A stretch of 39,016 nt of DNA from Thermodesulfobacteriota bacterium. Its GTDB lineage: Bacteria > Desulfobacterota > Desulfobacteria > Desulfobacterales > JAUWMJ01. The stretch lies in NCBI GenBank assembly GCA_034189135.1, contig JAXHVO010000120.1, positions 1 to 39,016 on the forward strand, written 5' to 3'. Both the position numbers and the translations under genes were made by a program. The notes under the pieces were generated by a model that saw only the letters and a program-made list of their open reading frames with translations, had not been told where the DNA came from and ran no database searches. Below are positions 3,678-38,318 of the stretch, piece after piece (within the stretch, counting starts at the first letter, position 1; every line of letters begins with the position of its first letter).

Positions 3678-3694
3678 TATAAAGTTCTCCTTTT

Positions 3695-10307: not shown

Positions 10308-10394
10308 AAGGTCATCAAAAGAATGTTGAAAAAGCTATTAAAGGATAACTTAGGTTTTCCGGGTACAAAAAAAGAATATTTTGATATGCCGAAG

Positions 10395-11402
10395 TCAAGT
10401 GCCTGATTGGGTCAGAAGTTTTGTACAGGCATTCATTACTCTGTTTACATCAAGCTTTCTCATACAGTCCCGATGTGGACAATGTTTCAGATAGCAGGGC
10501 ACGCATTCCATTTCGGTCATACTTACGACAAGGCTTTTATGATTTTGTGGTCCTACATAATACGGATCTGTGGGACCAAACAAAGCGACTATCGGAATGT
10601 CTATCGATGAGGCAAGGTGCATAATTCCAGAATCTATGCCCACAAATAGCTTTGCATCTTTTATGATTGAACAGAGTGAACGAAGTCCGGTATTTCCGGT
10701 TAAATCCACCACAAACGGCTCTTTGTTCCGGTTGCTTTCCATTGCCAGTTTTACTATGGTTTGATTGTAAGCTTGACTTTTTCTTCCCCCCACCAGTACC
10801 GTATCTAATCCAAAGTTTTCCTTAATTGAAATGATTAATTTTGCGAATTTATGCTGGCCCCAAGTCTTTGTCTGTCTTCTTTTTGACGCCCCTGGTGAGA
10901 TAACAATGTATTTGGGGGGAAGGCCAAAATTATTTCTGTTCTTATCTGCAGTGATAAGTCCGATATAGTCATTTTTATTCACACTGATATTGAGTTTTTT
11001 AAGCAGCTTGGCATTATTGTGCCAGCTATTATGGCCTTCGACGATTTCTTTGATATCAAGACATAGATCCCAGGGAAAATGAGCAAAGCCGGCTTTTATT
11101 TTTGCTTTGCTAAATGTGGTCAATATCAGGCTTTCCAAAGACCTGGGCAGGGAGATTAACAGATCATACTGGTAACTGCGCAATTTGTTTAAAAGCTCAA
11201 GCTTTGCTTTCAAATTTACTTCCCGCAATATGATGCGGTCCACATAGGGTAATCCTGTCAACAGCTCTTTCAGGTAGGGTTTTACAACTGAATGAATGGT
11301 TGCACCAGGGAAATTATCTCTAAGGGCTTTTAGCAGCGGAAGGGAAAAGACCAGATCACCGATCTGATTTAGATGAATAATACATATTTTGTTGAAATTC
11401 AT
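10395..11402 (-). CDS. Glycosyltransferase family 9, LPS heptosyltransferase-like
   Basis: This 335-residue GT-B protein starts ICIIHLNQIGDLVFSLPLLKAL, the N-terminal signature of WaaC/WaaF/WaaQ-type enzymes. It carries VISPGASKRRQTKTW and the donor-site segment FVGIDSGIMHLASSIDIPIVALFGPT in two adjoining parts. The family transfers L-glycero-D-manno-heptose from its ADP derivative to Kdo or heptose of the inner core. A heptose adenylyltransferase (rfaE2, 26009-26494) elsewhere in the window agrees with a heptose-containing core. Four cysteines near the C-terminus (ECVPCYLKHCPHRDC) are typical of many GT9 members. The gene follows the radical SAM gene after 11 bases. Confidence 0.9.
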   Translation of the reverse strand: MNFNKICIIHLNQIGDLVFSLPLLKALRDNFPGATIHSVVKPYLKELLTGLPYVDRIILREVNLKAKLELLNKLRSYQYDLLISLPRSLESLILTTFSKAKIKAGFAHFPWDLCLDIKEIVEGHNSWHNNAKLLKKLNISVNKNDYIGLITADKNRNNFGLPPKYIVISPGASKRRQTKTWGQHKFAKLIISIKENFGLDTVLVGGRKSQAYNQTIVKLAMESNRNKEPFVVDLTGNTGLRSLCSIIKDAKLFVGIDSGIMHLASSIDIPIVALFGPTDPYYVGPQNHKSLVVSMTEMECVPCYLKHCPHRDCMRKLDVNRVMNACTKLLTQSGT

Positions 11403-11413
11403 AGCTTTTAGGC

Positions 11414-12631
11414 TTAAAGAAAGAAATCATCATCCTTTTCTTCTTCTATTTCATCAACATTTTCATTTGAATGAATAGAATTTTCTATCCACCAGTTTAA
11501 GTGGTGATAAAAACATGCCACTACGCTGCACTCCTGTTCAGCGTTAAAGTTTGCGATGGAGTGAGCCAGGTCTTGTTGCGTGTCATTGAATTTGTTTTCA
11601 TCATCATAGCCGTTATAATTTCCTATTTTTGCTTTATCAGCACCCCTGAAAGCGGGACAATGAAAGATTCCGGACGGGGTGAGAACAGCCCGGAAAAATT
11701 GCGCATGACAGGTTTTCGGTTGTTTTTTCATTTCATGGACTTTACCACCCATCAGTTCTGACAAATTTATGCTTTTCAGTATTTTTATCTTTTTGTTTGC
11801 GATTTGCTTCGCCTGTTGCAAATTATTCTTAATTTCTTTTATCACTTTCTGCTCTCTTATTTTATCTGGAGGGTCAAAAAGAGATTCCTTTTGAGAAAGA
11901 TCAAGCTTCAGAAGACAGGGTTTGAAAGATATATAGTCAAAGTGATAGGTTTTTGCCAAACGAACCGCTTGAGGAATTTCATCAATGTTCGGGCAAAGTT
12001 GTTTTCCATCTATGTAAATTCCTTCCCACACAATGACAAAAGAATAGCCCATGGAAATGCGTGGGTTAAGTTCTTTAAATTCCCGCGCATTGGACAGTAT
12101 GGTTTCCAGACTGATATTATTTTTCGGATTGTGGGACCGGGCAAATGTTGTTTCACTTGCGGCATCTATGGAAATTCTTAACCAGTCCTTTCCCTCTAAT
12201 AGTTTTGCAATATTTTTAATATGCTGGAGTCTTGATCCATTTGTTACGATACCAATTTGCATTCCCCTGTTTTTTAGGTACCTGACTATTTCTTCAAAGT
12301 CTCTATGAAGGGTGGGCTCACCGCCTCCGATGAGGATAACAGACATCAACCCGTGAGATTTTAAGGTATCGATGCTTTGTTTCAGGTTTTCCGTATCAAG
12401 AATCTTACCGGAATTTATTATTTTTGAATCGACACAGTGGGGGCAGCGGAAATTGCAAGCGGTTGTTAAATCTAGATTTATCGATAAAGGCCCGTAATCA
12501 GGAAAAGCTTTACTGGTATCGGATGCCTCGAAACTACGACGCCACGAGATATATTCTTTGAGTCTTTCAATGACCGACGACTGTCTTAGCTTGGAGCTAA
12601 AATCGTGTTCTTTATTCTTTAATTTTTCCAT
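11414..12631 (-). CDS. Radical SAM protein in glycan locus
   Basis: This 405-residue protein carries the [4Fe-4S]/SAM motif C59-x3-C63-x2-C66 (TTACNFRCPHCVDS), the GGGEP motif (VILIGGGEPTLHRDFEEI) and VTNGSRL, all classical for radical SAM enzymes. The C-terminal part has further cysteines (KTCHAQFF, IFHCPAF, QECSVVACF) consistent with an auxiliary cluster of the SPASM/twitch kind, though the spacing is not canonical. An AAGG sequence precedes ATG 12631 by five bases. The gene sits between a Gfo/Idh/MocA oxidoreductase (9 bases) and a GT9 gene (11 bases), so a role in modifying a sugar or lipid of the envelope is inferred. The reaction is unknown. The acidic C-terminal tail (EEEKDDDFFL) is unusual. 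Confidence 0.88.
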   Translation of the reverse strand: MEKLKNKEHDFSSKLRQSSVIERLKEYISWRRSFEASDTSKAFPDYGPLSINLDLTTACNFRCPHCVDSKIINSGKILDTENLKQSIDTLKSHGLMSVILIGGGEPTLHRDFEEIVRYLKNRGMQIGIVTNGSRLQHIKNIAKLLEGKDWLRISIDAASETTFARSHNPKNNISLETILSNAREFKELNPRISMGYSFVIVWEGIYIDGKQLCPNIDEIPQAVRLAKTYHFDYISFKPCLLKLDLSQKESLFDPPDKIREQKVIKEIKNNLQQAKQIANKKIKILKSINLSELMGGKVHEMKKQPKTCHAQFFRAVLTPSGIFHCPAFRGADKAKIGNYNGYDDENKFNDTQQDLAHSIANFNAEQECSVVACFYHHLNWWIENSIHSNENVDEIEEEKDDDFFL

Positions 12632-12640
12632 AAATACCTT

Positions 12641-13564
12641 TTAAATTGTTTCATAACAGTTATAAATTTTTTTCAACATATAATACGTGGCCATAATATG
12701 CAACTTGCCTATTTGTGGCTCCTTTTTTGTTTTGACTGAGGATATAAAATCTTTCACCGATAGCTCAAGTGGATCATCCAGCTTCAAGCTTTTATCCAGA
12801 TATTTAAAATAAATGTTATAGTCCTTAAGATCCAGAACGCGGTAAACAATTTTATCATTAAATCCAAATCTAAAACTGCGGGGTTGTCGCTTTTGCCTTT
12901 CAAGGTTGATAAGGACCTCGCAGTTGTTGTTGGGCGTCGTATAGATGAACCTTACTATCATTTTACTTCCATCGGGCTCAATATTTGTTTTAATCATTTT
13001 GCCTTTTCCCAAAGTAAAATACAGAAGGCTTAAGGCATGGGGGATTGAATCGAGTATCATCTCTTTTCCGCGAACCATGGGAGAAAGATGCATAAAAAAA
13101 GTATCAGTTTTTTTTCGGTCAATGGGCCCGCAAAGGGTTTCATAATAAGGTAACGAGAAAGGCCATTGAGAATTCATGGCAATTTTGAGTTTCCTGTCTT
13201 CAGCTTTCTGCAAAATGAAATCGACTTGTTTATGTGGGTCATCATGATTATTCCACATAAACGGTTTTTCACAGAAAACATGCAAACCTGCATCCACCGA
13301 TTTGATAAGGTAGTCAAAATGGGTCGGCAATGGGGAGGCAATCACAACCGAGTCGGGTGTTTTCTCTGCTATCATTTGGTAAAAGTCGGTATAGGCAGAA
13401 GCTTGGATACCATACCTCTTTAGATTGCTAGCGGCATGACGGGAAGTTGTTTTTGTGGTTCCCAGCACGGAATTAACGGTGGTCTTGTTTTGGTGAAAAT
13501 ACTTTGCAATATATTCTCCGATGCCGTTATTATTTCGACCAGCCCCTATTATGGAAACTTTCAT
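12641..13564 (-). CDS. Gfo/Idh/MocA-family oxidoreductase
   Basis: This 307-residue protein opens with a Rossmann motif (VSIIGAGRNNNGIGEYIA) and contains VVIASPLPTHFDYLIKSV and GLHVFCEKPFMW, the EKP signature whose lysine is catalytic in this family. These enzymes oxidise or reduce sugars, often nucleotide sugars, with NAD(P). As first gene of the radical SAM/GT9/kinase run, it probably takes part in the same envelope sugar pathway. The AAAGG sequence lies directly against the ATG, closer than usual. Substrate cannot be predicted. Confidence 0.88.
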   Translation of the reverse strand: MKVSIIGAGRNNNGIGEYIAKYFHQNKTTVNSVLGTTKTTSRHAASNLKRYGIQASAYTDFYQMIAEKTPDSVVIASPLPTHFDYLIKSVDAGLHVFCEKPFMWNNHDDPHKQVDFILQKAEDRKLKIAMNSQWPFSLPYYETLCGPIDRKKTDTFFMHLSPMVRGKEMILDSIPHALSLLYFTLGKGKMIKTNIEPDGSKMIVRFIYTTPNNNCEVLINLERQKRQPRSFRFGFNDKIVYRVLDLKDYNIYFKYLDKSLKLDDPLELSVKDFISSVKTKKEPQIGKLHIMATYYMLKKIYNCYETI

Positions 13565-13850
13565 TCCTTTACCATATTACCAAGATATAAGATCGAATTA
13601 ACATTTCATAGTATACTAAGATTTTCGAAAAGTACTCTTTTGTAAAGTTCTCGAACTGCCAATAGCAATCTGGAATGTCGCCCGCTTCTCATGTTTGGCA
13701 TACATAGAGAATACTAAGGTTAAATCTTATATGTTACTAAAGAATTAATTAAAAAAAAATAACATGCAGCAATAATTTTTGCAACGTCTATTATCATGGG
13801 AATATACCACCAAAAACCGAGATATTGAGGTTGTTGGTGATAAATATTTG

Positions 13851-13879
13851 TTGACTTTAGCGAAAGGGCTTTTTAGTAT
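13851..13879 (+). promoter_or_regulatory. Predicted sigma70-type promoter of rocD operon
   Basis: A TTGACT -35 box (13851-13856) is followed after exactly 17 bases by TAGTAT (13874-13879). The predicted transcription start near 13886 falls in the palindrome listed next, leaving a leader of about 105 bases before rocD. Prediction rests on hexamer match and spacing only. Confidence 0.5.
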
Positions 13880-13884
13880 ACATC

Positions 13885-13909
13885 ATACGATTATACCATT
13901 ATATCGTAT
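13885..13909. promoter_or_regulatory. 25-bp palindrome, probable operator at rocD transcription start
   Basis: Perfect 7-bp arms ATACGAT and ATCGTAT flank an 11-base partly symmetric centre (TATACCATTAT). The site lies directly downstream of the predicted -10 box, where a bound protein would block transcription. The obvious candidate is the GntR/FadR regulator at the end of the same cluster (18801-19523); this is inference. A lone half-site ATACGAT recurs upstream of arcB at 15283-15289. Confidence 0.5.
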
Positions 13910-13990
13910 AAACATTGGAGAAATTCCAAATATGGGTTGGGAGAGGTTTGGGTGAAATCTAAATAGAAAATGAAACAAGAGAGGTGAAAG

Positions 13991-15187
13991 GTGAAACAAC
14001 AACAATATATGGATTTGGAAAATGAATTTGGCGCACATAATTACAAGCCGCTGGATGTGGTGTTGGAGCGAGGCGAGGGAGTCTGGGTTTGGGATGTGGA
14101 TGGCAACAAATACCTTGACTGCCTTGCAGCGTATTCCGCAGTCAATCAGGGGCATTGTCATCCAAAAATTATGAACGCAATGATTGACCAGGCAAAAAAA
14201 TTGACATTGACTTCAAGAGCATTTCGAAATGATCAGCTTGGTTTATTTTACCAGGAACTGTGTAAACTTACCCATTCTCACAAAGTCTTACCCATGAATA
14301 GCGGCGCAGAGGCGGTGGAGACTGTGATTAAGACGGTTAGAAAATGGGGATATAAGGTAAAGGGAGTTGAGGAAGATAAAGCGGAAATCATTGTCTGTGA
14401 GAATAATTTCCATGGCCGTACCATTACCATAGTCGGATTTAGCACAGACCCGAATTCCACCGAGGGGTTTGGTCCGTTTACCCCTGGTTTTAAAATTATC
14501 CCCTTTGGAGATGCTAAAGCTTTGGAAGACGCAATTACACCCAATACGGTTGGCTTTCTTGTAGAACCGATTCAGGGCGAGGCCGGGGTGATCATCCCGC
14601 CGGTCGGGTATCTGAAGGCCGCAAGGGCTATTTGCGAAAAAAACAATGTGGTTCTCATACTGGATGAAATCCAAACCGGCCTGGGGCGAACCGGAAAACT
14701 TCTGGCTGAAGAACATGAGAATATAGAAGCGGATTTAACCTTAATCGGCAAAGCCTTATCAGGCGGCTTTTATCCTGTTTCAGCTGTTTTGTCCAACAGC
14801 GAAGTCATGGGCGTATTGCAGCCAGGTGAACACGGAAGCACATTCGGAGGTAATCCATTGGCATGTGCTGTGGCCCGTGTTGCGTTGAAAGTGCTGGTTG
14901 AAGAAGGAATGGTAGATAATGCCGCAGAAATGGGGACTTATTTTTATGATGGGCTAAGTCAGATAAAAAATCCGATAATTAAAGAGATTCGAGGCAAAGG
15001 ATTAATGATAGGTATGGAGCTTTGGCCTGAAACAGGCGGAGCTCGCCAGTATTGTCAAAAACTTAAGAAAAAAGGGCTGCTTTGTAAAGAGACCCACGAG
15101 AATATTATTCGGTTTGCACCCCCGCTTGTTATTACCAAAGATGTGGTTGACTGGGCACTGGAACAGATTGAAGCTGTTTTAAAATAA
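13991..15187 (+). CDS. rocD: Ornithine aminotransferase (ornithine-oxo-acid transaminase)
   Basis: RocD converts ornithine plus 2-oxoglutarate to glutamate-5-semialdehyde plus glutamate in the cytoplasm. This 398-residue class III PLP enzyme has the RocD/OAT-type N-terminus ([16 protein letters not shown], then [14 protein letters not shown]), LILDEIQTG with D225, and the PLP lysine K254 ([15 protein letters not shown]). The SAVNQGH segment favours ornithine aminotransferase over acetylornithine aminotransferase ArgD. The start is GTG 13991, preceded by a GAGG sequence; ATG 14009 is possible. It is the first gene of a five-gene module with arcB, a GTPase, arcC and a GntR regulator. Supply of ornithine by ArcB next door fits a catabolic role. 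Confidence 0.92.
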
Positions 15188-26008: not shown

Positions 26009-26494
26009 ATGGATACCATTTCTAAAATAATAAAACTGCCGGAGCTTCAAGCGAAAGTGGATTCGATTAAAGTGTCAGGAAGTAAGGTTGTATTTACCAA
26101 TGGCTGCTTTGATATACTGCACGTTGGACATGTTCGCTACCTTGCTGCCGCCCGCTTGAAAGGGGATGTGCTCATAGTTGGTTTGAATTCCGATGACTCG
26201 GTAAAATCGATTAAGTCCACCAAGAGGCCCATAGTGAACCAGGACGAAAGGGCCGAAGTCCTTGCGAGTCTGTGGTGTGTGGACTATATTATTTTATTTG
26301 ATGAACCGGACCCCCTTTTACTTATTCAGGCCATTAAACCTGATATACTGGTTAAAGGGGATGACTGGGCTGAAGAAAATATAATAGGGGCTGACTTTGT
26401 TAAAGAACAAGGCGGCAAGGTCATACGGGTGCCGGTGGTACCCGAAGCTTCTACATCAAGAATTATACAAACAATCGTAAAGAGATACCGTTGA
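26009..26494 (+). CDS. rfaE2: D-glycero-beta-D-manno-heptose 1-phosphate adenylyltransferase
   Basis: This 161-residue nucleotidyltransferase corresponds to the C-terminal half of bifunctional HldE. It carries VVFTNGCFDILHVGHVRYL with the H38-x-G-H41 catalytic motif, LIVGLNSDDSVKSIKS, KPDILVKGDDW and the C-terminal ISTTxxx-like EASTSRIIQTI. It makes ADP-heptose from heptose-1-phosphate for LPS inner-core synthesis, agreeing with the GT9 gene at 10395-11402. The kinase half (RfaE1) is not in the window. ATG 26009 is preceded by an AGG-containing stretch. Confidence 0.95.
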   Translation: MDTISKIIKLPELQAKVDSIKVSGSKVVFTNGCFDILHVGHVRYLAAARLKGDVLIVGLNSDDSVKSIKSTKRPIVNQDERAEVLASLWCVDYIILFDEPDPLLLIQAIKPDILVKGDDWAEENIIGADFVKEQGGKVIRVPVVPEASTSRIIQTIVKRYR

Positions 26495-26648: not shown

Positions 26649-27428
26649 ATGAGCTTAATATCAGTTAATAGAAACGGCACTTCATTCTATCAGTTCCCCA
26701 ACCTATCCAGGTTTTCGAATATCGACCATGGGATTTTTACCAGAAAGAACGGCTACAGCAAAATGCCGTACCAAAGCCTTAACACAAGTTACAGCACTGG
26801 TGATGACATCAGAAATGTGAGGTTAAACCGATCGGTGATCGCGAAGTGTTTTGACAGCAATGAGCTTATATTCGCCAAGCAGGTACACGGGACGAAAGCT
26901 ATGGTGTTTACCCAACAAGCTATTCCACGGAAAAAGAATTGCTACGATTTACTCCCTGAATGTGATGCCATGATCACAGATGTTAAAGAAAAATCTCTGG
27001 TGATACAGGTGGCGGATTGCCAGGCCATACTGATTTATGATCCTGTGGGGCAGGTGATTGCGAATGTTCATTCAGGTTGGCGCTCAAGCATAAAAAATAT
27101 AATCGGACGAACCATATATACTATGCAAGAGGAATTTGACTCAAAGCCGTGTCATATGGTTACCGGTATCAGCCCTTCACTTGGCCCATGCTGTGCGGAA
27201 TTTGTAAACTATAAAGATGAGATTCCCCAAGAATTTTGGAAATTTAAGGATGATTCAGATCATTTTGATTTTTGGGCCATCAGCTTCAACCAGCTTTGTG
27301 ATGCAGGGGTTTTAAAGAAGAATATATATTTAAGCGAAATATGCACCCGTTGCAATACTGATTTATTTTTTTCCTTTCGCGGCGAAGGGACCACGGGAAG
27401 GTTTGCTAGTGTGATTGGTTTGAAATGA
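26649..27428 (+). CDS. pgeF: PgeF/YfiH-family (laccase-domain) purine nucleoside phosphorylase
   Basis: This 259-residue protein has the three conserved zinc-site regions of the family: KQVHGTK with H80, VIQVADCQAILIYD with C124 and IANVHSGWRSS with H141. TGISPSLGPCCAEF and SEICTRCNTDLFFSFR follow. Family enzymes, earlier called polyphenol oxidases, phosphorolyse purine nucleosides, and E. coli YfiH also edits misbuilt cell-wall precursors. The active-site histidines and cysteine are intact. It is the last plus-strand gene before the convergent polyketide synthase; the start ATG 26649 has only a weak ribosome site. Confidence 0.92.
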   Translation: MSLISVNRNGTSFYQFPNLSRFSNIDHGIFTRKNGYSKMPYQSLNTSYSTGDDIRNVRLNRSVIAKCFDSNELIFAKQVHGTKAMVFTQQAIPRKKNCYDLLPECDAMITDVKEKSLVIQVADCQAILIYDPVGQVIANVHSGWRSSIKNIIGRTIYTMQEEFDSKPCHMVTGISPSLGPCCAEFVNYKDEIPQEFWKFKDDSDHFDFWAISFNQLCDAGVLKKNIYLSEICTRCNTDLFFSFRGEGTTGRFASVIGLK

Positions 27429-27755: not shown

Positions 27756-30700
27756 TTAAAGGTTTGAAGTTGGTTGTGGTTTAAATGCTTTATATAGTGA
27801 AGCGTCAAAAACAGCTTCATATCCCGTCAACTTGGCAATGATCACATTGTCTGGGTCAAGGAAGGTAAAGTCCCCTCTCATGATATGATCAGTCGCTTTA
27901 TGTACTTTAAGTATTGCCGTAATCCCCTTGGCAGGAAATCTGTCGCAATACTGTCGGTACGAAGCCAGGTAGCTTGGAAGAGATACCTTTCCCATCTCAT
28001 CATAGCACCAGATAATCGCCATTTGAAAAGCTGAATCGAGAACCAGGGGATCGGCTATCCAACTGTTTCTTAAAGGGTCGACCATCCATTTTTCAGGTGA
28101 AGGCGCCGAGGAAATTTCAGCAATGATTCCCTCAGGGGAGTAGCCGATGATTTTCTTTATTCCGCGTAGCTCACTGCCATGAAAAAGAATTTTATCATAT
28201 ACCTCATCAATGCTACGAGGATAAGTTTTTGAATCAAAATATTCCGATGAATTGAAAGCAGGGGGCAGGGACGGTTCATCAGATAAAATGGCCTTTGCGC
28301 GGGAGTGTATGACCGGCATATTATCTTTAAATCCGTTGCGCAGTTCCACATTAACTTCGTAAGTTTTACCATTTTTTCTGGGTTTGCCCGCCATAAGGCG
28401 AATTAACTTTTTCTCCTGATCGAGCTTGATGCCGTTTAGAATTCGCATATCATCGAAGCCGTGAAGAATAAGGCCCGGATTTTCATGAAGCGCGCCATGC
28501 CCGAGCCATTCAGTCATCAGGGCAAAGGGAACCACAGGTTTTCCATCCAGGACGTGTGAATTAAGAACCGGGTATTTTTCAACATCCAGCTCACGTTTAA
28601 AGGTAAGAGAAAGGGGATCATTATTTTTTAAAACAGCCTCCGGTTTTTTTTTAGAAGCCAGGCTTATTTTGTCGTCTGTTTCATTATGGACAATGATTTT
28701 CGAACCGATCACGACTTCTGCCGGGGCGTTTTTGTCCCCCATCATTTCGTAAAGCATACATTTTGCACCCTCTTGTACTGGGATCAGGTGGACACCGTTT
28801 TTGGCAAATTCTCGTTTTAATGAAGGCGATACCATACCTCCATCCCAGGGGCCCCAGTTGATAGATATCACCTTACAATCCGGTCTTAATACCGATTGCT
28901 GCCACGCTGTTTTGTTCAGAACTTCATTTGCCATGGCATAGTCAACCTGGCCCCTGTTTCCCATCCGGGCGGTTATGGATGAAAAAAGAACAATGTATTT
29001 AAGGGCGTCCTCTTTGGTTGCATCAAGAAGCGCTCTCAGTCCCATTACTTTGGTGTCAAAAACTTTGTCAAACTGTTTAATGGTCTTATCGGTGATAAAA
29101 CGATCTTCAACAACGCCTGCGCCGTGGATAATACCTGTTATGGGGCCATGAGTTGAGTGAATTTTATGGAAAATCGAAATGACACTGTCATATTTACGGA
29201 CATCCACCGAGTAATAGGTAACATCGGAACCTGCCGATTTCAACCGTTCTAAATTGTTTGCGATTTCACGATTTGCCATGTGCTTTTTATAGGCGGCTTC
29301 AATCTTTTTAGGCGATGTCTTTTTTTGGCTAAATTCATTTTTAAGGATGGCTTTTTTTATCAGGGATTCATCTTCCAATGTTGCCAGCCATTCTGGTTCA
29401 GGTGACGGCGAAGGGGAGCGGCCAAGAAGAATAAGGGTGGGGTTGCCATGATTTGCCAGGGCAAGTGCCGCGGCAGAGGTAATGCCTCTTGCGCCGCCTG
29501 TGATAACCATCACATCATCCGGGGTAAAATCAGCTGTATGCGGCACATCCAATGTATATGGTGAGGATTCAAGCTCAAGCGTATGTCGCATTCCGGGCGG
29601 CAAATTTTTGCTAAAACCGATTTCAACAGGGCCAGATGGATCGGGAGTTAACAGTTCTGTCACGATCAGCTTGGCAAGTTCCAAGTTTTCTTTCCATCCA
29701 GGTTCGACGTCAATGGCACGGCAGCATACATTTTCCCATTCAATGGCGGCTGTTTTTGCAAGCCCGATCAGACCGCCCTGCAAGGGGTTGAGCATCCCCC
29801 GGCCCTTAAAACCAAAGGCCCCGTCTATCCTGGTGATAGTAGCAAAAATCGCACCACCATTTTCGCTGGAATGGAGAATGTCGGGCGCCACATGATTTGC
29901 CAGCAAAAATGCGTCTTTTAAATCCGGATTGGTATTTTGAGCCTCGGGCCCAGCTTCAGGATTTGCCACCATGATAAGACCGGCAGCTTCAGGGAGCTTT
30001 TTTTTATACTTTAAAATATCAGGAGAAATAAGAACGGTATTGATATCCTGCAACTCAAATTCATCAATAATCGCCTGTGAAAGACCGGTTTTGTCGTCGG
30101 TAATGAAAATTTTTCTTCCCTTTGGTACCGATATTCTTTCACCCTGGTGAAATTTATTTTCCATTACGGAAACAACTTTTCTATTAATTGTACCCGAAAG
30201 GAGGGGGGATGCATTGTTAGAAATAGCAGCCGGTTTATCATCTGCAGGTTTAGTTTCTAAATCGGTTGGATTTAAAGAGCCCGGTGTTGAATTGCTGAAA
30301 GGTTCGGTTTTCAGGCCTTCGTTTTCAAGGTATTGGACGATCTGGCCCAGTGTTTTCAGCGTACCCACCACATCGGGAGAAATGGAAGGCAAAACAGGCA
30401 TTTTTTCTTCAAGAGTGGAAAGAATCTCAACCCGTTTTATGGAATCAATACCCAGGTCGGCTTCAATGTCCATATCAAGGCCGAGGGTTTCCACCGGGTA
30501 ACCGGTAAGCTGGCTGACTACTGAAAGCAGGGTCTGTTCAATATTTTTTTTTTGATCTGGGGGTGGCTCAAAATCGTTTTCCTCAGACGAAAAAGATAGG
30601 TTTTTTTTGTTTGGTCCTTTAGAATTTATCGACTCGTCCACCGACTGAGAATTGACCATGTATGCGACAATCTGCCCGAGTGTTTTTAGGGTTCCCACCA

Positions 30701-33700
30701 TATCGGGTGAAATGGGTGAAAGATGAGGAATTTTTTCTTCCAGAGTAGAGAGGATTTCAACCCGTTTTATGGAATCAATGCCCAGGTCGGCTTCAATGTC
30801 CATATCAAGGCCGAGCGTTTCCACCGGGTACCCGGTGAGCTGACTGACCACTGAAAGCAGAGTTTGTTCAATATCTTTTTGCTTTAGCCCGGGCGATAAA
30901 ACAGATGACTTAACAGCTGATTCGACAGAGACCTCTTCAGGTTGGGCTTCGATCCGGTTCACGGCATTTATCGCGTCGGGAACCACTGTTTCAATGGTGC
31001 CGGAGCCGACAAAACCTGCAGAACCTCTCGCGGCATCCGCTTTGGTTTGTTCCACCGTGCTTTTTGGCTGCCGCTCTTTATGGCGTTCGGTATCCGGTTT
31101 GGCAACTTTTTCTGCAGATGGGGATTTCATGCCCAGGGAAACTTCAACAAGCCGGTGTGTGCTTTCCATCATTTGCTGTAAGGATCGACTCGCATCGGAT
31201 TGGGTTTCTAAAAATTTTTGGTGGGTTTCGGCGGTCTGCCTTTGAAGGTCCTGCATCGACTTTAAACCTTGTTGAACCAGGCTTAACGAATCGATAATAA
31301 AGTTTGAATGATTTTGTTTGCTATTTTCCATTATAGGTCGCTTTCCGTCGATATAATCTACCTGCGAAACACGGTTTTTAGTCTGTTGCGGTGGTAATTC
31401 GGAGTTATTATTTACCGGATCGTTTTTTCTTTCAGATGGTGGCCTGATGCTTGTATATTCAGCTTTACTGTTTTGCGGTTTGATGTTTTTTGTTTCAGGT
31501 TTGGGTTTTACGTAATTTGCTCCCGAAATAGGAATGCTCATTTTTTGCTGTGCTGGTTTTAAAACAGGATGTTCCCAGTTGCTTAATTTAACCGGATATC
31601 CCAAACATGCCAGCTGACAAAGAGTCGCGGCGAGATCCGACACTCCGAAACGAGACCCAGAAGATCTGTCCATGGGGATAGATATAAAACTTTGACCTGC
31701 TAAAATAGACCTCACCAGACCGGACATCACCGATTTCGGTCCGACTTCGATGAAGGTTTTCACCCCTGATTTAAAAATATTTTCAATTTCACTCTTAAAA
31801 TCCACCGGCTGCAGAAGGTGCCCGGCCAAAATCTTTTTTACTTTTTCCGGGTCTAAAGGGTAGGGGAGCCCGGTGGTATTGGAGAAAACCGGTATGTCTG
31901 AAGGGGTAATATTAATATCTTTTAGATACCCGGCAAAAGGAGTTTGCGCATCTTTTACAAAGGAACTGTGAAATGCGGCAGATACCGGTAGTTTTACTGT
32001 TTTAAATCCTTTTTTGCTTAATATTTCATCTGCCTGCAAAATGGCTCTGGTTGAGCCGGAAAGAACCCCCTGGTCCGGGCTGTTTCTGTTTGCCAGAATG
32101 ACATCCAGATTTGCAGTTGAAATCAGCTCGTCAAGTTGGTCAAGGGGGGCTTTGACCGCCAGCATACTTCCGCTGTCATGATTATTCTTTCTTCCCGCTT
32201 CTGCCATCAGTTGGCCCCGGCAGTGTGCCAGAAAATAAAGCGTATCCTCATCGATCCATCCGGCAGCGCAGAGTGCGGCCAGTTCACCAAAGCTGTGACC
32301 GCATGTCACGTCCGGTTGTAGGCCGAATCGTCCGAGAATTTTCAGCATGGACAGGCTGATGGCCCCAATGGCCGGTTGAGCAATCTCGGTTCTTTTTAAA
32401 TTTTCTTCCTGAGCGGTCTTTTCTTCTTTACTCACAGCGGGCACAGGATAGATAAAATCGCTCAGGCGGGATTTTCCTTTATGGTTTTTATTTGCTTTTT
32501 CCAGGGAATCAAGAGCCTCCGGGAAAATGCAGGCCAGGTCATGGCCCATGCCGACATATTGGCTTCCCTGACTTGGGAACACAAATGAAATTTTCCCGGG
32601 TGGCTTGCCAGAGCCATAATAAATATTATTTTCATTCCAGTTTGATTTTTCCCGATTTGCCTCCAACGCATTCATGGCTTTGGAAAAAAGGGCAGGCAGA
32701 TCTTTAAAATCTTCCAGGACAATTAAAAGCCTGTGTGGATCTTCAGGGGAAAAAGTTTGCCTTGTTTCTGCAGCCTTTATGGCAATATCTTTAAAGGGCC
32801 GGTCACTGTCAATTAAGGCCTTGAAATCTTGGAAACGCTTTTTAAGCTTTTTTCGACTCGATGCGGACAGGGCAAAAATTTCCACTGAACCGTCCCAGGA
32901 AGTCTGATTTTTAGCTGGTTCGTATTCTTCCAGGACCACATGGAAATTACTTCCGCCGAATCCGAAAGAGCTGACACCGGAACGGCGGGGATGTTTTTTA
33001 TCAGCCACCCAGGGCCGGGTATCAGTATTAAGATAAAAGGGAGATTGATCTATATTGAGGCCGGGGTCAGGATCTTGCGCTTTCAAGGTGGGAGGCAATA
33101 CTTTATTATAAAGCGAAAGCGCGGATTTTATCAAACCGGCCGCTCCTGCTGCTGCTTTGGTATGACCGATCATAGATTTTACCGAACCGAGTGCACATTT
33201 ATGGCTACTATCACAAGATTCACTGAAAACCTGATTGAGCGCCTTGAATTCCACCATATCTCCCACGATGGTTCCGGTGCCATGTGCTTCGATAAGACGG
33301 ACTGTAGCAGGATCGATATCAGAGTTTTCGTACGCCATTCGAAGTGATTTGGCCTGCCCCTCTGGTTTTGGAGCATAAATGCTTTGGGATCTGCCGTCGC
33401 TTGAGGTCCCCATGGCCTTTATCACCGCATAAATCTTGTCTCCATCTTTTTTTGCCTCTTCCAGTCTTTTAAGCACAACAAGGCCGACACCTTCTCCCAG
33501 CACCGTACCATCCGCATCCTTGGAAAATGGTCTTGCATCTCCGGTGGGTGAAAGGATATGGGTTTTTGAAAAGCACATGTACATGAAAATGTCATTTAGC
33601 GTATCTACACCACCGGTAATCACCATATCACTCTTACCGGATATGAGTTCCATGAGGCCAAGGTGTATGGCGCTCATGGAACTGGCACATGCCGCATCAA

Positions 33701-34319
33701 CCACACAGTTGGTGCCGCCCAAACCCAGGCGGTTGCATATTCTTCCTGCGACCACATTTCCCAGCAGGCCGGGAAAGGAGTTTTCCTGCCATGAGATGTA
33801 TGAATCGGATATTTTATCAATAACGGTTTCAGTGGTTTGTCGAGGGACGCCGGCTTGTTGAAGGGCTTTGCGCCATTTGGGAAAGCCGAGTCTTGAGCTT
33901 AAAGGGATCACCAGTTCCTGTGTCCCGGTGACTCCAAGTATGACGCTGGTTTTATCCCGGTCAAACGCTTTTTCTTTTCCATAGCCGGCGTCATCCATGG
34001 CCATTTTAGCGGCCATCAGGCTAAGGAGCTGGGAAGTATCCGTTGCTTCAATCGAGTTGGGGGGAATTCCGAATTCGGCCGGATCAAAAGAGACAGGGGA
34101 GAGAAAGCCGCCACGCTTGCAATAGGTGTGATCCGCTTTTTTGGGATCAGTATCAAAGTACTCTTCCGCAGACCAGTGGGTGTCGGGGAGGTCGGTTATG
34201 CCGTCCTCACCGCGTGAAATAAGACGCCAGTATTCCTTGACGCCCGGTGATTTGGGGAAAAAACATCCTATCCCTATAATAGCGACAGGAATATTGGGTA
34301 TGGTTTTGATATTTTTCAA
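27756..34319 (-). CDS. PfaA-like iterative polyketide/polyunsaturated-lipid synthase, KS-AT-ACP-ACP-KR-DH
   Basis: The 2187-residue protein shows, in order: a ketosynthase (about 10-465; Cys211 in VDAACASSMSA, His346 in EAHGTGT, His386 in GHTKAAAG) and an acyltransferase (about 575-885; Ser676 in GHSFGE, His784). A Gln/Ser-rich linker with a coiled-coil-like stretch (about 1010-1060) follows, then two carrier domains with the PfaA-type motif LGIDSIKR (Ser1183, Ser1293). Next come a ketoreductase (about 1440-1850; TGGARGI, Tyr1794) and a C-terminal dehydratase-like hotdog (His1922 in HVLDGKPVVP, Asp2095 in DSAFQ). The start is TTG 34319, the only start between an in-frame TAA and the KS domain. 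Order and motifs match PfaA of polyunsaturated-fatty-acid synthases, but with two rather than about five ACPs. pfaB, pfaC, pfaD and a phosphopantetheinyl transferase are not in the window. Confidence 0.93.
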   Translation of the reverse strand: MKNIKTIPNIPVAIIGIGCFFPKSPGVKEYWRLISRGEDGITDLPDTHWSAEEYFDTDPKKADHTYCKRGGFLSPVSFDPAEFGIPPNSIEATDTSQLLSLMAAKMAMDDAGYGKEKAFDRDKTSVILGVTGTQELVIPLSSRLGFPKWRKALQQAGVPRQTTETVIDKISDSYISWQENSFPGLLGNVVAGRICNRLGLGGTNCVVDAACASSMSAIHLGLMELISGKSDMVITGGVDTLNDIFMYMCFSKTHILSPTGDARPFSKDADGTVLGEGVGLVVLKRLEEAKKDGDKIYAVIKAMGTSSDGRSQSIYAPKPEGQAKSLRMAYENSDIDPATVRLIEAHGTGTIVGDMVEFKALNQVFSESCDSSHKCALGSVKSMIGHTKAAAGAAGLIKSALSLYNKVLPPTLKAQDPDPGLNIDQSPFYLNTDTRPWVADKKHPRRSGVSSFGFGGSNFHVVLEEYEPAKNQTSWDGSVEIFALSASSRKKLKKRFQDFKALIDSDRPFKDIAIKAAETRQTFSPEDPHRLLIVLEDFKDLPALFSKAMNALEANREKSNWNENNIYYGSGKPPGKISFVFPSQGSQYVGMGHDLACIFPEALDSLEKANKNHKGKSRLSDFIYPVPAVSKEEKTAQEENLKRTEIAQPAIGAISLSMLKILGRFGLQPDVTCGHSFGELAALCAAGWIDEDTLYFLAHCRGQLMAEAGRKNNHDSGSMLAVKAPLDQLDELISTANLDVILANRNSPDQGVLSGSTRAILQADEILSKKGFKTVKLPVSAAFHSSFVKDAQTPFAGYLKDINITPSDIPVFSNTTGLPYPLDPEKVKKILAGHLLQPVDFKSEIENIFKSGVKTFIEVGPKSVMSGLVRSILAGQSFISIPMDRSSGSRFGVSDLAATLCQLACLGYPVKLSNWEHPVLKPAQQKMSIPISGANYVKPKPETKNIKPQNSKAEYTSIRPPSERKNDPVNNNSELPPQQTKNRVSQVDYIDGKRPIMENSKQNHSNFIIDSLSLVQQGLKSMQDLQRQTAETHQKFLETQSDASRSLQQMMESTHRLVEVSLGMKSPSAEKVAKPDTERHKERQPKSTVEQTKADAARGSAGFVGSGTIETVVPDAINAVNRIEAQPEEVSVESAVKSSVLSPGLKQKDIEQTLLSVVSQLTGYPVETLGLDMDIEADLGIDSIKRVEILSTLEEKIPHLSPISPDMVGTLKTLGQIVAYMVNSQSVDESINSKGPNKKNLSFSSEENDFEPPPDQKKNIEQTLLSVVSQLTGYPVETLGLDMDIEADLGIDSIKRVEILSTLEEKMPVLPSISPDVVGTLKTLGQIVQYLENEGLKTEPFSNSTPGSLNPTDLETKPADDKPAAISNNASPLLSGTINRKVVSVMENKFHQGERISVPKGRKIFITDDKTGLSQAIIDEFELQDINTVLISPDILKYKKKLPEAAGLIMVANPEAGPEAQNTNPDLKDAFLLANHVAPDILHSSENGGAIFATITRIDGAFGFKGRGMLNPLQGGLIGLAKTAAIEWENVCCRAIDVEPGWKENLELAKLIVTELLTPDPSGPVEIGFSKNLPPGMRHTLELESSPYTLDVPHTADFTPDDVMVITGGARGITSAAALALANHGNPTLILLGRSPSPSPEPEWLATLEDESLIKKAILKNEFSQKKTSPKKIEAAYKKHMANREIANNLERLKSAGSDVTYYSVDVRKYDSVISIFHKIHSTHGPITGIIHGAGVVEDRFITDKTIKQFDKVFDTKVMGLRALLDATKEDALKYIVLFSSITARMGNRGQVDYAMANEVLNKTAWQQSVLRPDCKVISINWGPWDGGMVSPSLKREFAKNGVHLIPVQEGAKCMLYEMMGDKNAPAEVVIGSKIIVHNETDDKISLASKKKPEAVLKNNDPLSLTFKRELDVEKYPVLNSHVLDGKPVVPFALMTEWLGHGALHENPGLILHGFDDMRILNGIKLDQEKKLIRLMAGKPRKNGKTYEVNVELRNGFKDNMPVIHSRAKAILSDEPSLPPAFNSSEYFDSKTYPRSIDEVYDKILFHGSELRGIKKIIGYSPEGIIAEISSAPSPEKWMVDPLRNSWIADPLVLDSAFQMAIIWCYDEMGKVSLPSYLASYRQYCDRFPAKGITAILKVHKATDHIMRGDFTFLDPDNVIIAKLTGYEAVFDASLYKAFKPQPTSNL

Positions 34320-34395: not shown

Positions 34396-34424
34396 AATAT
34401 AACGCATAAAAACCATATTTGCAA
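34396..34424 (-). promoter_or_regulatory. Predicted promoter of the polyketide synthase
   Basis: Reading on the minus strand, TTGCAA (34424-34419) and TATATT (34401-34396) are 17 bases apart, a good sigma70 match. Transcription would start near 34389, leaving about 70 bases of leader before TTG 34319. The -35 box lies four bases from the -35 box of the divergent regulator promoter. Confidence 0.5.
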
Positions 34425-34428
34425 GGAC

Positions 34429-34457
34429 TTGACAACAAATAATCTGGTTGATAAGGT
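34429..34457 (+). promoter_or_regulatory. Predicted promoter of the MerR-like regulator
   Basis: A consensus TTGACA (34429-34434) is followed after 17 bases by a weak -10 TAAGGT (34452-34457), which lies inside the 30-bp palindrome. The transcript would begin near 34464, giving a leader of about 20 bases with no clear ribosome site. Confidence 0.45.
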
Positions 34458-34476
34458 GGTGTAACAACTTATCAAC
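34447..34476. promoter_or_regulatory. 30-bp palindrome, probable operator for the MerR-like regulator
   Basis: Perfect 9-bp arms GTTGATAAG and CTTATCAAC flank a 12-base spacer. The left arm covers the predicted -10 box of the regulator gene, so protein bound here would block that promoter. It lies about 23 bases upstream of the synthase -35 box. Autoregulation by the adjacent regulator is inferred. Confidence 0.55.
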
Positions 34477-34484
34477 ATAAAAAT

Positions 34485-35066
34485 ATGATTAAATTTTACA
34501 CCAACAGGGAGTTATCACAAAAACTGAACATAAATCTTGCCAGGTTCAAGCGCTGGTCCCGTGAGTTTCTGCCGCCGGATCCGCTGGGAGGCATGCAATC
34601 CGGATATGCAAGACAGTATTCTATAGATAATGCTTTTACAATCTATCTTGGCGGACATTTAGTCGGTGAACTTAAATATACTATTCCGCAAGCAAACAAA
34701 ATACTTGAAGATTTAAAAAAGTGGTTAAGGGAAAACGATTTTTACATAAACACTGAAAATCCCGGGAAAACCGGAAATAAAGCCCGGGCCCTGGTGAAAG
34801 AGTATATCATTTTTATTCTGCAGGAAAATGATTTAGCAACAGGTTCCGGCAAGTTTTCATACAGAATCCGAGGTATAATAAGCAATTTAACGGCAAATAA
34901 TAATGAGTATGGGGTTAGAGAGGAACGCTATATTGAGGATTATGTTCCGGCTGATAAAAGAAATAATCATATAGTCTGCGAAAAAATGCTGAAGATAACC
35001 ATGCTTCATCGTTATTTTAAAACCTGTGTAACTCAGGTGGATAGGCTGAAGACTGAAGACTGTTAG
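34485..35066 (+). CDS. MerR-like helix-turn-helix regulator
   Basis: This 193-residue protein starts MIKFYTNRELSQKLNINLAR, a MerR/HTH_17-type helix-turn-helix. A wing-like segment (RKW-type FKRWSREFLPPDPLGG) and ARQYSIDNAFTIYLGGHLV follow, as in MerR-like proteins where the region after the wing is Y-S-x-x-D/E-x-x. The rest has no recognised effector domain. It is divergent from the polyketide synthase and has a palindrome in its own promoter, so it probably controls the synthase and itself (inference). There is no Shine-Dalgarno before ATG 34485. The last seven codons and the stop are formed by a repeated CTGAAGA sequence belonging to an intergenic element, so the true ancestral C-terminus may differ. 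Confidence 0.7.
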   Translation: MIKFYTNRELSQKLNINLARFKRWSREFLPPDPLGGMQSGYARQYSIDNAFTIYLGGHLVGELKYTIPQANKILEDLKKWLRENDFYINTENPGKTGNKARALVKEYIIFILQENDLATGSGKFSYRIRGIISNLTANNNEYGVREERYIEDYVPADKRNNHIVCEKMLKITMLHRYFKTCVTQVDRLKTEDC

Positions 35067-35330: not shown

Positions 35331-38318
35331 TTATCGTATCAAAACCGCCCTCGACTTTTTCCCGTCAATTTTCAACGTGATGGGCCGGTCCAGTTTTACA
35401 TGCCTCAAATAGTCGGTTTCACTTTGGGGCAATAGAGATTTCAACCATTTCCAGTCCAGAAAATCTTCATCATTTTCTTTTATGGTCAGGTAGCTGATAC
35501 CCAGAGAGGTGATGTTGTGAAAAAAATGGGATCCTTGGGAAGGATCGGCCTTTAAGTTTTCCGCTGTGGTTTCGATTACCGCTCCTATGCCTGAAATATT
35601 GTTCCAGGTGACAGGAATTCCCAGCCACCGGTCGGCCGAGCCCCACCTTCCCGGACCGATCAGAAGATATTTTTTGTTTTGCTGTACCATCTGCCGGTTC
35701 ATTTTTCCTATTTCAGCGGCTATTTCAACGGTTCGTGCCGGGTCAAACGAATCAGGTCTGACATAAATGATGTCGGTAATATCTTCAAATTTACCATTAC
35801 CCAGGGCCATGGTTGAAAAACAGAAAGCGCGCCTTATATCTTTCTGGGTAATTTCAACATCCCGGTTATACTGGCTGATGGCCATCGGTCTGATCTGAAG
35901 CAGGGAGAATTCCGCTTTTTTCTTGTTATTGAAATCGATACTAACGGAAAACTCGATTTCAACCGGAGACCCCATCCCTTTTCTTCCTATTTTCAGGATT
36001 TCGCTAAGGATCGGTGGGAGCGGAAATAAATCATATTTTAATATACCGGCAAAGGTAAGAACCCGATAACCGGGAACATTACCTGCGTCACGTATCCTGT
36101 TTTCTTCAGGAATGTAAGTGCTGGAAAGATGAACCACAGGTGCATGATCGGATACGTCATCTATTTCCAGCTTTTCAAGAGTTGCGTCATCTGTTGCATT
36201 ATCTTGCGATTCCAAAGATTCCGCTGAATCAACCATTTTCAGTGCAAAGAAAAACCGCTGTGAATTTTTTAAAATGTCATCTACGGTAGAAAACTGTGGG
36301 AGGAATTGTGGATATTTTGGTGAAAAGCGAAGGGATGTCCCCCCTTCAACCACTGTTTTACCCAATCCCAGTGCAATATGGGCAATTCCCTCCTCCGGTT
36401 TCATATGGGATATGGGATAGAAGTTGTAAGACTGGGCCACTCCTGCAAGTGCCGGATAGAAGTAATCGCCTTGCCGGTTCCCGCTAAGCTGCTGTATAAT
36501 CACCGCCATTTTTTCATCTTCGGTTCGATGCAAGGTACTTCTGGCATAGGCCCTTGGTATTTCAAGATATGTGGAGGCATACACCAGTTTTATGGCGATC
36601 TCAAGTTGCACGAGCCTCTGATCAGGGTCTGGGTCTTGGTTGGGCAGCATATAAGTCTTGTAGATACCGGCAAAAGGTTGAAATTGGGCATCTTCAAGAA
36701 GGCTGGATGAGCGAATGGCCAGAGGATAGTTTATATGTTCAATAAATAATTTAAGGTTGCTGTGAAGCCAATCGGGTAGGGAGGATTGTAAGAAAATCTC
36801 AGAAATCTGGTTATCACTATAGTCGCTGGTGGGAATGTCTCTCAGCTTGTTTTCGTTGATAAATGAATCAAAAGCTTCTGTAGAGATGACCAGGGTTTTG
36901 GGAACGCTGATGGTGATGTCATTAAATTTTTTATGGATATGAGGATTTTTCTTAAGCTGGGTGGACATGAATGCCAGGCCTCTGGCTTTTCCACCGAGGG
37001 AACCTTTGCCGATTTTAATGAAATCAGCATCCGGATCAAAAGCATCTGAAACAAAATCGGTGATGATCCCTTTCTGGCGGCCCATTCTCCGTTCTTGAAT
37101 AGAGGCAACCAGATGATCTTTTAATTCTTTGATGTTTGGGAAGTCAGATGTTTTCAAGGGCTTAAGCTTTGAGGCCAGCAGGATTTCAGAACGGGCCATG
37201 AGCCAGCTTGAAAAGTGATTCCGGGTGGCATGAAAAAAGATAGATTTATCGGGAATAGAAGGAACAACCTTTTCCATTTCCATGAGATTAGAGGCCCTGG
37301 CTATTTCCCTGCCGTTGGGAAGACGAAAGATGAAATCGCCGAAGCCGAGTCTGTCCATAAAAAAAGAGCGGATTTCAGAATGGAGTGCGGGCGAATTTTT
37401 ATTGAGAAAAACAGCAGGAATCTTTTCTGCTTTTTTGCGGTTTGCCTCTTCCGAGCTTAAGTTTAGTAAAGGGATATCCGGAATTTCTTTTTTTATCATG
37501 GAAAGGAGATCGAATCCCGCTCGATTGTCTAATTTGCCTTTTCGGGGAAAACGGACATCGGAAAATACGCTCAGCAGATAAGGTTTAAACTGCCGGTAAA
37601 GCTTTTCGGCCTCTTCATAATTATGAGCCATCAGTATTTTGGGTCGTGCGCGCATTCGGAGAATGCGATGTTCGTCATTGATTGATTCTTCCATGACCGC
37701 CTGGGTTTGCCTGACGATTTCTTTATAAAGGATCGGAAGAAAGGATGAATAATATATGGGTGAATCTTCCACCAGAATAATCACTCTGACCTTTGCCCTC
37801 TGAGTATCATAGGCCACATTCATCTGATCTTCGGTATTCTTGATCAGCGCAAGAAGCAGATCACTGTTTCCGTACCATACATACAGTTTATCTATCGAGG
37901 TGGTATCCGAATACTTAGAATCAAGGAGAAGCCGGTTGGTGTTATGAGCCAGGAGAAAAATCGGCAATTCGGGGCATAGCTTTTTTATTTTCCTTCCCAG
38001 ACTAAACGCATCCATGTCGTCCAAGCGGGGCATGGTGATCACCAAATCAAATTCTTTGTTGGATAAAGTATTCAGGGCCTCCTGGGCAGTGGATACCCAG
38101 GTAAGCTTGGGCGGGCGGGAAAGATTCAATCCGCGGTATTCATGGATGATTCTTTCCGCCAGGCGTCCTTCCTCTTCCATGATAAAGGCGTCGTAAGGAC
38201 TGGAAACCAGAAGGATTTCAGTAACTTTATTTGCCATCAGCTCATGGAAAACCTTAAAGGAAAGATCAAAATCATCCAGGTGGTTATTCGGCAGATTTGT
38301 GTTTGGTATTGGATTCAT
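35331..38318 (-). CDS. Double receiver / PEP-synthase-type ATP-grasp fusion protein
   Basis: This 995-residue protein has two receiver-like domains followed by a pyruvate-phosphate-dikinase/PEP-synthase ATP-binding domain. The first receiver (about 33-160) lacks the acidic pocket and a clear phosphorylatable Asp (DLVITMPRLDD). The second (about 178-320) has E184/D185, Asp254 (VFSDVRFP), S288/S289 and K307 and looks functional. The ATP-grasp part (about 430-815) has GSLGGKARGLAF, LAIRSSSLLEDAQFQPFAGI and LLQIRPMA. The phosphohistidine swivel (TSHAAI-type motif) and the PEP/pyruvate barrel are missing. In their place is a distinct C-terminal region (816-995) with LLIGPGRWGSADRWLG. It may phosphorylate something other than pyruvate under two-component control (inference). 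No partner kinase is nearby. Confidence 0.85.
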   Translation of the reverse strand: MNPIPNTNLPNNHLDDFDLSFKVFHELMANKVTEILLVSSPYDAFIMEEEGRLAERIIHEYRGLNLSRPPKLTWVSTAQEALNTLSNKEFDLVITMPRLDDMDAFSLGRKIKKLCPELPIFLLAHNTNRLLLDSKYSDTTSIDKLYVWYGNSDLLLALIKNTEDQMNVAYDTQRAKVRVIILVEDSPIYYSSFLPILYKEIVRQTQAVMEESINDEHRILRMRARPKILMAHNYEEAEKLYRQFKPYLLSVFSDVRFPRKGKLDNRAGFDLLSMIKKEIPDIPLLNLSSEEANRKKAEKIPAVFLNKNSPALHSEIRSFFMDRLGFGDFIFRLPNGREIARASNLMEMEKVVPSIPDKSIFFHATRNHFSSWLMARSEILLASKLKPLKTSDFPNIKELKDHLVASIQERRMGRQKGIITDFVSDAFDPDADFIKIGKGSLGGKARGLAFMSTQLKKNPHIHKKFNDITISVPKTLVISTEAFDSFINENKLRDIPTSDYSDNQISEIFLQSSLPDWLHSNLKLFIEHINYPLAIRSSSLLEDAQFQPFAGIYKTYMLPNQDPDPDQRLVQLEIAIKLVYASTYLEIPRAYARSTLHRTEDEKMAVIIQQLSGNRQGDYFYPALAGVAQSYNFYPISHMKPEEGIAHIALGLGKTVVEGGTSLRFSPKYPQFLPQFSTVDDILKNSQRFFFALKMVDSAESLESQDNATDDATLEKLEIDDVSDHAPVVHLSSTYIPEENRIRDAGNVPGYRVLTFAGILKYDLFPLPPILSEILKIGRKGMGSPVEIEFSVSIDFNNKKKAEFSLLQIRPMAISQYNRDVEITQKDIRRAFCFSTMALGNGKFEDITDIIYVRPDSFDPARTVEIAAEIGKMNRQMVQQNKKYLLIGPGRWGSADRWLGIPVTWNNISGIGAVIETTAENLKADPSQGSHFFHNITSLGISYLTIKENDEDFLDWKWLKSLLPQSETDYLRHVKLDRPITLKIDGKKSRAVLIR

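Follow-up and report, generated by a model that had tools for sequence, protein, structure and literature searches.

The pfaA-like gene in the stretch of DNA analysed here (the window, 39,016 nucleotides of contig C120) belongs to a Type I/K Pfa synthase that is ordinary for the Desulfobacterales but dispersed in layout. With high confidence we regard it as the PfaA subunit of a multi-subunit synthase of polyunsaturated ('secondary') lipids akin to Types I and K of Shulse and Allen, whose cluster has been broken up in the genus and whose product is most likely released through OleA. An earlier note on this DNA had described the gene as an orphan, but PfaBC, PfaD, a phosphopantetheinyl transferase (PPTase) and OleABCD are all present in the same genome.

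The pfaA gene and its surroundings

The gene is one uninterrupted ORF, and its 2187-aa protein scores 1562.8 bits against the PfaA profile TIGR02813, above the curated cut-off of 1010.1. Pfam places KS at residues 11-413 and AT at 579-870, followed by two PP-binding domains, KR at 1604-1826 and PS-DH at 2036-2168. Both the domain order KS-MAT-tandem ACP-KR-DH and the catalytic residues are those of a PfaA, hence Pfam, motifs and profile together confirm the complete order and the intact KS, AT, KR and DH residues reported before. The two carrier domains were confirmed as well (Table 1), but they are not unusual as had been supposed, two ACPs being the usual number for the Desulfobacterales clade.

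Table 1. Features of the pfaA locus, in window coordinates.
Feature	Position	Strand	Remarks
pgeF	26649..27428	+	convergent, flanking, outside the pathway; TIGR00726 145.9 bits, cutoff 141.15; kept in G002
pfaA-like gene	27756..34319 (including stop)	-	2187 aa, TTG start; KS-MAT-ACP-ACP-KR-DH; TIGR02813
C-terminal PKS-type DH	27816..28607 (domain start approximate)	-	HVLDGKPVVP at 1922, D2095
KR domain	28842..29510	-	Pfam; GGARGI at 1608, YAMAN at 1794
Second ACP	30327..30536	-	Pfam; attachment serine in GIDSIK, residue 1290
First ACP	30654..30866	-	Pfam; attachment serine in GIDSIK, residue 1180
Malonyl-type AT domain	31710..32585	-	Pfam; GHSFG with S676, AFH motif
KS domain	32931..34289	-	Pfam; C211/H346/H386 intact, invariant alignment columns
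Sigma-70-like promoter	34401..34429 (approximate)	-	TTGCAA-17-TATATT; 20-21 bp downstream of operator
Operator-like palindrome, 24 bp	34446..34469	-	AGTTGTTACACCACCTTATCAACC, consensus AGTTGTTATATCAATATATCAACT
MerR-like regulator	34485..35066	+	193 aa, divergent; pfaA-linked in relatives

A KS phylogeny against the known pfa and hgl types had been proposed. In a tree without gammaproteobacterial pfa and hgl references, the window's PfaA falls within the Desulfobacterales PfaA clade (SH-aLRT 99). This clade is nested in a larger one with Geobacteraceae, Planctomycetota and Myxococcota, which fits Types I/K, and the KS of a Geobacteraceae member is 63% identical to that of the window. A plasmid search for relatives of the PfaA KS gave only matches below 60% identity.

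The divergent regulator and the convergent housekeeping gene, PgeF, lie as described before. Using PfaBC, PfaD, the PPTase and OleA of this same genome as tblastn queries, we detected no pfaB, pfaC, pfaD, PPTase or OleA gene in the window, all matches being confined to the KS/AT region of pfaA itself; the earlier statement that no such partner lies beside pfaA is therefore correct within the window. The OleD query gave a sole weak match (23%) at 5949-6908 in the left half, and Rfam found nothing above gathering score on the window or on contigs C86 and C61. The HTH-pfaA-pgeF layout is repeated in G002, a separate assembly from the same genus (77/80/78% identity), hence it is not an assembly accident.

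Partner genes and product release

The partners are spread over four contigs other than C120, namely C86, C61, C17 and C42, of a 140-contig draft genome (G000) in which the layout was read at contig level. PfaBC, a single-copy fusion of 2396 aa on C86, has KS, CLF, AT and four FabA hotdogs (KS-CLF-AT-DH2), and its AT carries the PfaB-type GYSLG motif. PfaD on C17, also single copy, scores 642 bits against a cutoff of 449, and the Sfp-type PPTase on C42 (197 aa) is the genome's sole ACPS-family member, so that the search proposed earlier for pfaBCD-like genes and an Sfp-type transferase yielded both. OleA lies directly after PfaBC (NF006720, 480 bits against 285; full-length match to Xanthomonas OleA structures) and OleBCD on C61 are 82/85/88% identical to oleBCD of the same genus, which completes the Ole gene set.

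In a comparison set of 116 genomes from the order Desulfobacterales, co-occurrence was assessed on the 81 of high quality. PfaA, PfaBC, PfaD and OleA are jointly present in 55 of these and all four are lacking in 11, with pairwise Fisher p values of 1e-6 to 4e-11 when related genomes are counted as independent. Of the 52 relatives with both genes located, 36 have oleA next to pfaBC. Over 14 genomes the pairwise divergence of PfaA correlates with that of PfaBC, PfaD and OleA (r = 0.68-0.82), and r is 0.68-0.89 among all four genes; matching divergence would also be expected for any vertically inherited genes. According to the earlier note, a standard pfaBCD set elsewhere in the genome with matching phylogeny would make this an ordinary split cluster, and such a set with matching divergence is what we find.

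We suggest that the subunits would assemble in trans, the first of the two possibilities raised before and the one favoured by the genes on other contigs. PfaA would load malonyl units and hold the elongating chain on its pair of ACPs, which are predicted from sequence to be armed by the unlinked Sfp-type PPTase. The PfaBC fusion would give the second KS/CLF, the PfaB-type AT and two FabA-like dehydratases, while PfaD would supply the enoyl reductase. OleA may then join a pair of acyl chains, both bound to Pfa ACPs, by head-to-head condensation, after which OleBCD would complete a long polyene hydrocarbon of C31:9 type. The lack of a thioesterase domain had led to the view that release was unexplained; by analogy with other Pfa systems, OleA gives a plausible and indeed likely route, and we infer a polyunsaturated hydrocarbon of C31:9 type as the predicted product.

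A link between pfa and ole was suggested earlier for Type I (PMC3098273), and Shewanella OleA takes acyl groups straight from Pfa ACPs (PMC6463001). Geobacter bemidjiensis, whose Type I cluster has the same gene set and the ancestral order (pfaD-A-B-C-oleABCD-pfaE; PMC3098273, PMC4882568), makes C31:9 from genes lying in tandem (PMC4882568), whereas the system of the window has pfaA, pfaD, pfaBC-oleA and the PPTase on separate contigs. The pfaBC fusion and the linked ole genes are Type I traits shared by the present genome. Our literature search found no products of Type K or I reported for sulfate reducers. A PfaT-like thioesterase was sought 3' of oleD in relatives, and the genes of 175-178 aa found there are by sequence unlike hotdog thioesterases.

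The PfaB-type AT of PfaBC could offer an alternative release route. Accordingly, the same dispersed synthase might mainly produce, through this AT, a polyunsaturated fatty acid that is either free or esterified in the membrane, leaving OleABCD mostly to other acyl chains. The GYSxG motif of the AT, the report of PfaB as a terminal long-chain acyltransferase (PMC12895367) and the ability of Pfa synthases to feed PUFA as well as hydrocarbon (PMC6463001) speak for it. We nevertheless consider it unlikely given the adjacency of oleA and pfaBC among relatives, the strong co-occurrence of the four genes and the C31:9 made by G. bemidjiensis, a related producer of Type I. That PfaA works by itself to give a separate kind of lipid or polyketide, as was also raised before and as a window empty of partner genes might suggest, is highly improbable, since all partners are encoded in the genome in single copy, show the same divergence pattern and adjoin pfaA in relatives.

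Break-up of the cluster in Desulfobacterales

With PfaBC and PfaD the genome holds the genes of a Pfa/secondary lipid synthase as defined by Shulse and Allen. As pfaA (C120), pfaBC (C86) and pfaD (C17) are unclustered, we term the system a dispersed Type I/K-like synthase and do not assign it to the Type I or Type K clusters. Unbroken pfaD-pfaA-pfaBC-oleABCD clusters occur in G067 and G005, and the clustered order in some relatives is xerD-pfaD-[regulator]-pfaA-pfaBC-oleABCD. The fragments in the present genome all retain an ancestral neighbour (xerD-pfaD, regulator-pfaA and YkgJ-pfaBC-oleA), hence the cluster was broken up, not lost. Desulfococcus (Desulfosudis) oleovorans, of the same bacterial order, has a Type K cluster (PMC3098273). 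At the L183 locus, labelled Desulfosudis oleivorans, pfaD-pfaA-pfaBC are contiguous, with a KS 69% identical to that of the window and without a MerR-like regulator between pfaD and pfaA, whereas the genes of the window's system are dispersed and the regulator is present.

The oleA and oleB genes lie at contig ends (the end of C86 and the start of C61); we sought an exact overlap between these ends and found none, and the analogy with G002 is the only basis for linking the two. These contig ends and the many contigs of the draft could suggest that the scatter is a draft-assembly or mixed-bin artefact of a truly contiguous cluster, a reading to which we give hardly any credence: contamination is 0.59%, non-pathway genes flank pfaA and pfaD on both sides in their contigs, upstream of pfaBC there is only the cluster-linked YkgJ-like gene and then unrelated genes, the pfaA layout recurs in G002, and in the nearly closed G050 a single 4.07-Mb contig carries pfaA, pfaD, pfaBC and oleA at four loci far from one another.

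The divergent regulator and its operator

PF13411 was weakly detected in 8 of 12 regulator homologues (best E 0.0026), and the top-ranked fold matches of the AlphaFold model (pLDDT 80) are mostly MerR regulators, which together indicate a MerR winged-helix fold. The best fold match is the MerR-type CvkR (PDB 7xn2; Z 10.9, 141 residues, winged-helix and beta domains), at 14% identity to the window's regulator. When PDB sequences were searched with a profile of the regulator, the matches were all weak and unrelated. The target of CvkR is not known to be related to lipid synthesis.

About 33 of the 34 loci examined have the operator-like palindrome upstream of pfaA, and a search of the whole of its own genome gives a single match. 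Its leave-out score is 23.8, compared with 12.2 for its own reverse and otherwise at most 11.1 in sampled loci of the genome; upstream of pfaD, pfaBC and oleB no operator was found, the best scores there being 10.3 or less. In promoters of MerR-type regulators the spacer separating -35 from -10 is elongated to 19-20 bp and contains the operator. Here the spacer is 17 bp long and the conserved palindrome is outside it, some 20 bp upstream of the -35, so we term the regulator MerR-like in fold and not a classical MerR activator.

Judged from sequence, the conserved divergent MerR-like regulator and its putative 24-bp palindromic operator are a new element, and the regulator probably controls pfaA alone from this dedicated site. 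Type A pfa systems of Shewanella and Photobacterium with pfaR share the KS-MAT-ACPn-KR-DH order, a regulator beside pfaA and the OleABCD partnership. Shewanella PfaA has four or more ACPs, with pfaB and pfaC separate, as opposed to two ACPs and a PfaBC fusion here, and PfaR has been described as MuA-transposase-like (PMC4744452), unlike the MerR-like regulator of the window. We speculate, and think it rather doubtful, that in Desulfobacterales the regulator, operator, promoter and pfaA make up an autonomous module able to move away from the remainder of the Pfa-Ole pathway and still function, so that the carrier-bearing subunit would be switched separately by an undescribed MerR-like family. 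In other Pfa systems carrier number limits productivity.

The apparent oddity of a lone synthase with neither partners nor a release step is thereby removed. Bacterial Pfa genes can persist as a set without clustering, and searches based on clusters would overlook the Pfa pathway of many sulfate reducers. From the co-inheritance of OleA beside PfaBC we predict that many Desulfobacterales make polyunsaturated hydrocarbons, and the conserved regulator-operator pair offers a concrete handle on the timing of lipid synthesis.

The pfaA gene and its partners

The gene and its flanks had previously been described correctly. The single ORF of 2187 aa scores 1562.8 bits against the PfaA model TIGR02813 (cutoff 1010), it has the domain order KS, AT, two ACPs, KR and PKS-type DH with a complete set of catalytic motifs, and no pfaB, pfaC, pfaD, PPTase or ole genes were found within the window. 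Among the closest relatives, most full-length PfaA proteins carry two ACP motifs and some carry three. As ACP number sets the yield and not the product in Schizochytrium and Shewanella (PMC5067506), the two ACPs suggest a modest yield rather than a different chemistry.

The remaining genes were found elsewhere in the draft genome (140 contigs, completeness 95.5%, contamination 0.59%), where the earlier note had proposed searching for pfaBCD-like genes and an Sfp-type transferase. Contig C86 encodes a 2396-aa PfaBC fusion with KS, CLF-like KS, AT and four FabA-like hotdogs, corresponding to two dehydratases. Its AT motif is GYSLG; the tyrosine form has been reported for PfaB, and malonyl transferases have GHSxG (PMC12895367). 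PfaD is encoded on C17 (642 bits, cutoff 449), and the sole ACPS-family PPTase, of 197 aa, on C42. Directly 3' of PfaBC lies OleA of the head-to-head hydrocarbon pathway (NF006720, 480 bits versus a cutoff of 285), which aligns end-to-end with Xanthomonas OleA structures. Contig C61 begins with OleB, OleC and OleD, 82, 85 and 88% identical to those of the same-genus genome G002, where they follow oleA. As C86 stops 194 bases past oleA, the separation is most likely merely a contig end; an exact overlap joining C86 and C61 was looked for and not found. Between the two contig ends, a stretch of C61 resembles domain V of a group II intron (21.2 bits against Rfam RF04357, under its gathering score of 53 bits), and such an intron may have caused the assembly break.

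The KS tree, also proposed earlier, placed the window KS within the Desulfobacterales PfaA clade, in a tree holding no gammaproteobacterial pfa or hgl references, and the nearest KS was that of G002 (89%). Some Desulfobacterales have a second, separate class of PfaA-like synthase, at L247-L253 (genomes G015, G082, G105, G048, G061, G068 and G008), its KS 53-55% identical to that of the window and outside its clade. Four tandem pairs of FabF-like KS genes in the genome look as in type II KS/CLF clusters (aryl-polyene or ladderane-like).

Features and their coordinates, in the window unless a contig or locus is named
Feature	Position	Strand	Remark
pfaA	27756-34319	minus	single ORF
Predicted operator	34446-34469		24-bp palindrome between regulator and pfaA, consensus AGTTGTTATATCAATATATCAACT
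Regulator	34485-35066	plus	divergent from pfaA
Response-regulator-like + PPDK_N protein	35331-38318	minus	995 aa, beside regulator
Surface-glycan genes	998-12631 and 26009-26494		glycosyltransferases, DegT aminotransferase, Kdo/WaaP-type kinase, HldE domain II homologue
MaoC-like hydratase and acyl-CoA ligase	L014 (C17): 12396-15089		right of pfaD, at the place taken by pfaA in relatives
Intron-like stretch	L153 (C61): 39-77		
Tandem FabF-like pairs	C77: 3422-5384; C118: 15431-17428; C65: 105414-107164; C49: 103595-104904		

A dispersed Pfa-ole cluster

We searched 116 genomes from the organism's own order for PfaA, PfaBC, PfaD and OleA. All four occurred together in 55 of the 81 high-quality genomes and none of them in 11, and every pair was associated (Fisher p 1e-6 to 4e-11, optimistic values as the genomes are related). 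Their divergence correlates across 14 genomes (r 0.68-0.89, permutation p 0.0005), as expected from joint inheritance, which any vertically passed genes would match too.

The genes pfaD, pfaA, pfaBC and oleA to oleD are consecutive in G067 (on one contig) and in G005. In most named relatives among Desulfobacterales, Planctomycetota, Geobacteraceae and Myxococcota pfaD adjoins pfaA, in many with pfaBC next. Within the order pfaD-pfaA are adjacent in 60/76 genomes and pfaBC-oleA in 36/52, while pfaA and pfaBC lie within 20 kb in only 15/59, all counts that draft assemblies depress. In the window's genome the cluster is broken up and each fragment has kept an ancestral neighbour: C17 has the order gltB-like, GAF, pepP, xerD, pfaD found also in G005 and L179 (61-83% identity), the window retains regulator and pfaA, and C86 retains a YkgJ-like gene, pfaBC and oleA. 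The HTH-pfaA-pgeF layout recurs in G002. The same dispersed end state is seen in G050, where a single 4.07-Mb contig has pfaA at 1.92, pfaD at 2.21, pfaBC at 3.16 and oleABCD at 3.64 Mb.

In G005 a homologue of the 995-aa PPDK_N protein, with 55% identity, sits some 5 kb upstream of pfaD, a hint of former linkage. In the single-contig genome G055 (79% complete, 5% contamination) the halves of both pfaA and pfaBC lie far apart on C1, reflecting either true gene splitting or misassembly.

The divergent regulator and its predicted operator

The 193-aa regulator is present in 33/116 genomes and lies less than 1 kb from pfaA in 28 of 32 tabulated loci. No curated Pfam or NCBIfam model matched the family above cut-off; PF13411 matches weakly in 8/12 members. 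The confident structure model (pLDDT 80) has CvkR as top fold match (Z 10.9 across 141 residues), and together with the PF13411 matches this marks the protein as MerR-like.

The palindrome was first seen as a dyad conserved between the window and G002, and then matched in 34 loci. It scored above nearly all shuffles of its own region in 33 of these (L199 was weak), a somewhat favourable comparison as the consensus was read from some of the same sequences. When the two same-genus sites are left out of the matrix, the window palindrome scores 23.8; ten loci of the same genome gave no other match above 11.1 except the same site reversed (12.2), and in a whole-genome pattern search it was the sole match. 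By pattern search, a TTGxxx hexamer and a -10-like hexamer follow the palindrome in 28/34 loci, nearly always at 20-21 bp and with a 17-bp spacer. Since the predicted operator lies upstream of the -35, and not in the spacer as in classical MerR activators, it could serve activation of pfaA or repression of the regulator gene. Palindrome and CvkR-like MerR regulator travel with pfaA across Desulfobacterales.

Product release

It is possible that the PfaB-type AT frees the chain as a fatty acid. The OleA route has precedents: Shewanella OleA accepts acyl groups straight from Pfa ACPs, making a thioesterase unnecessary (PMC6463001), Type I synthases have been proposed to supply olefin synthesis (Shulse and Allen, PMC3098273), and Geobacter bemidjiensis, with the product C31:9, has pfaD,A,B,C,oleABCD in tandem (PMC4882568), whereas here the genes are spread over separate contigs. 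From these cases we infer that release in the window's organism would likewise proceed via OleA, which would draw acyl chains from the Pfa ACPs with no need for a thioesterase.
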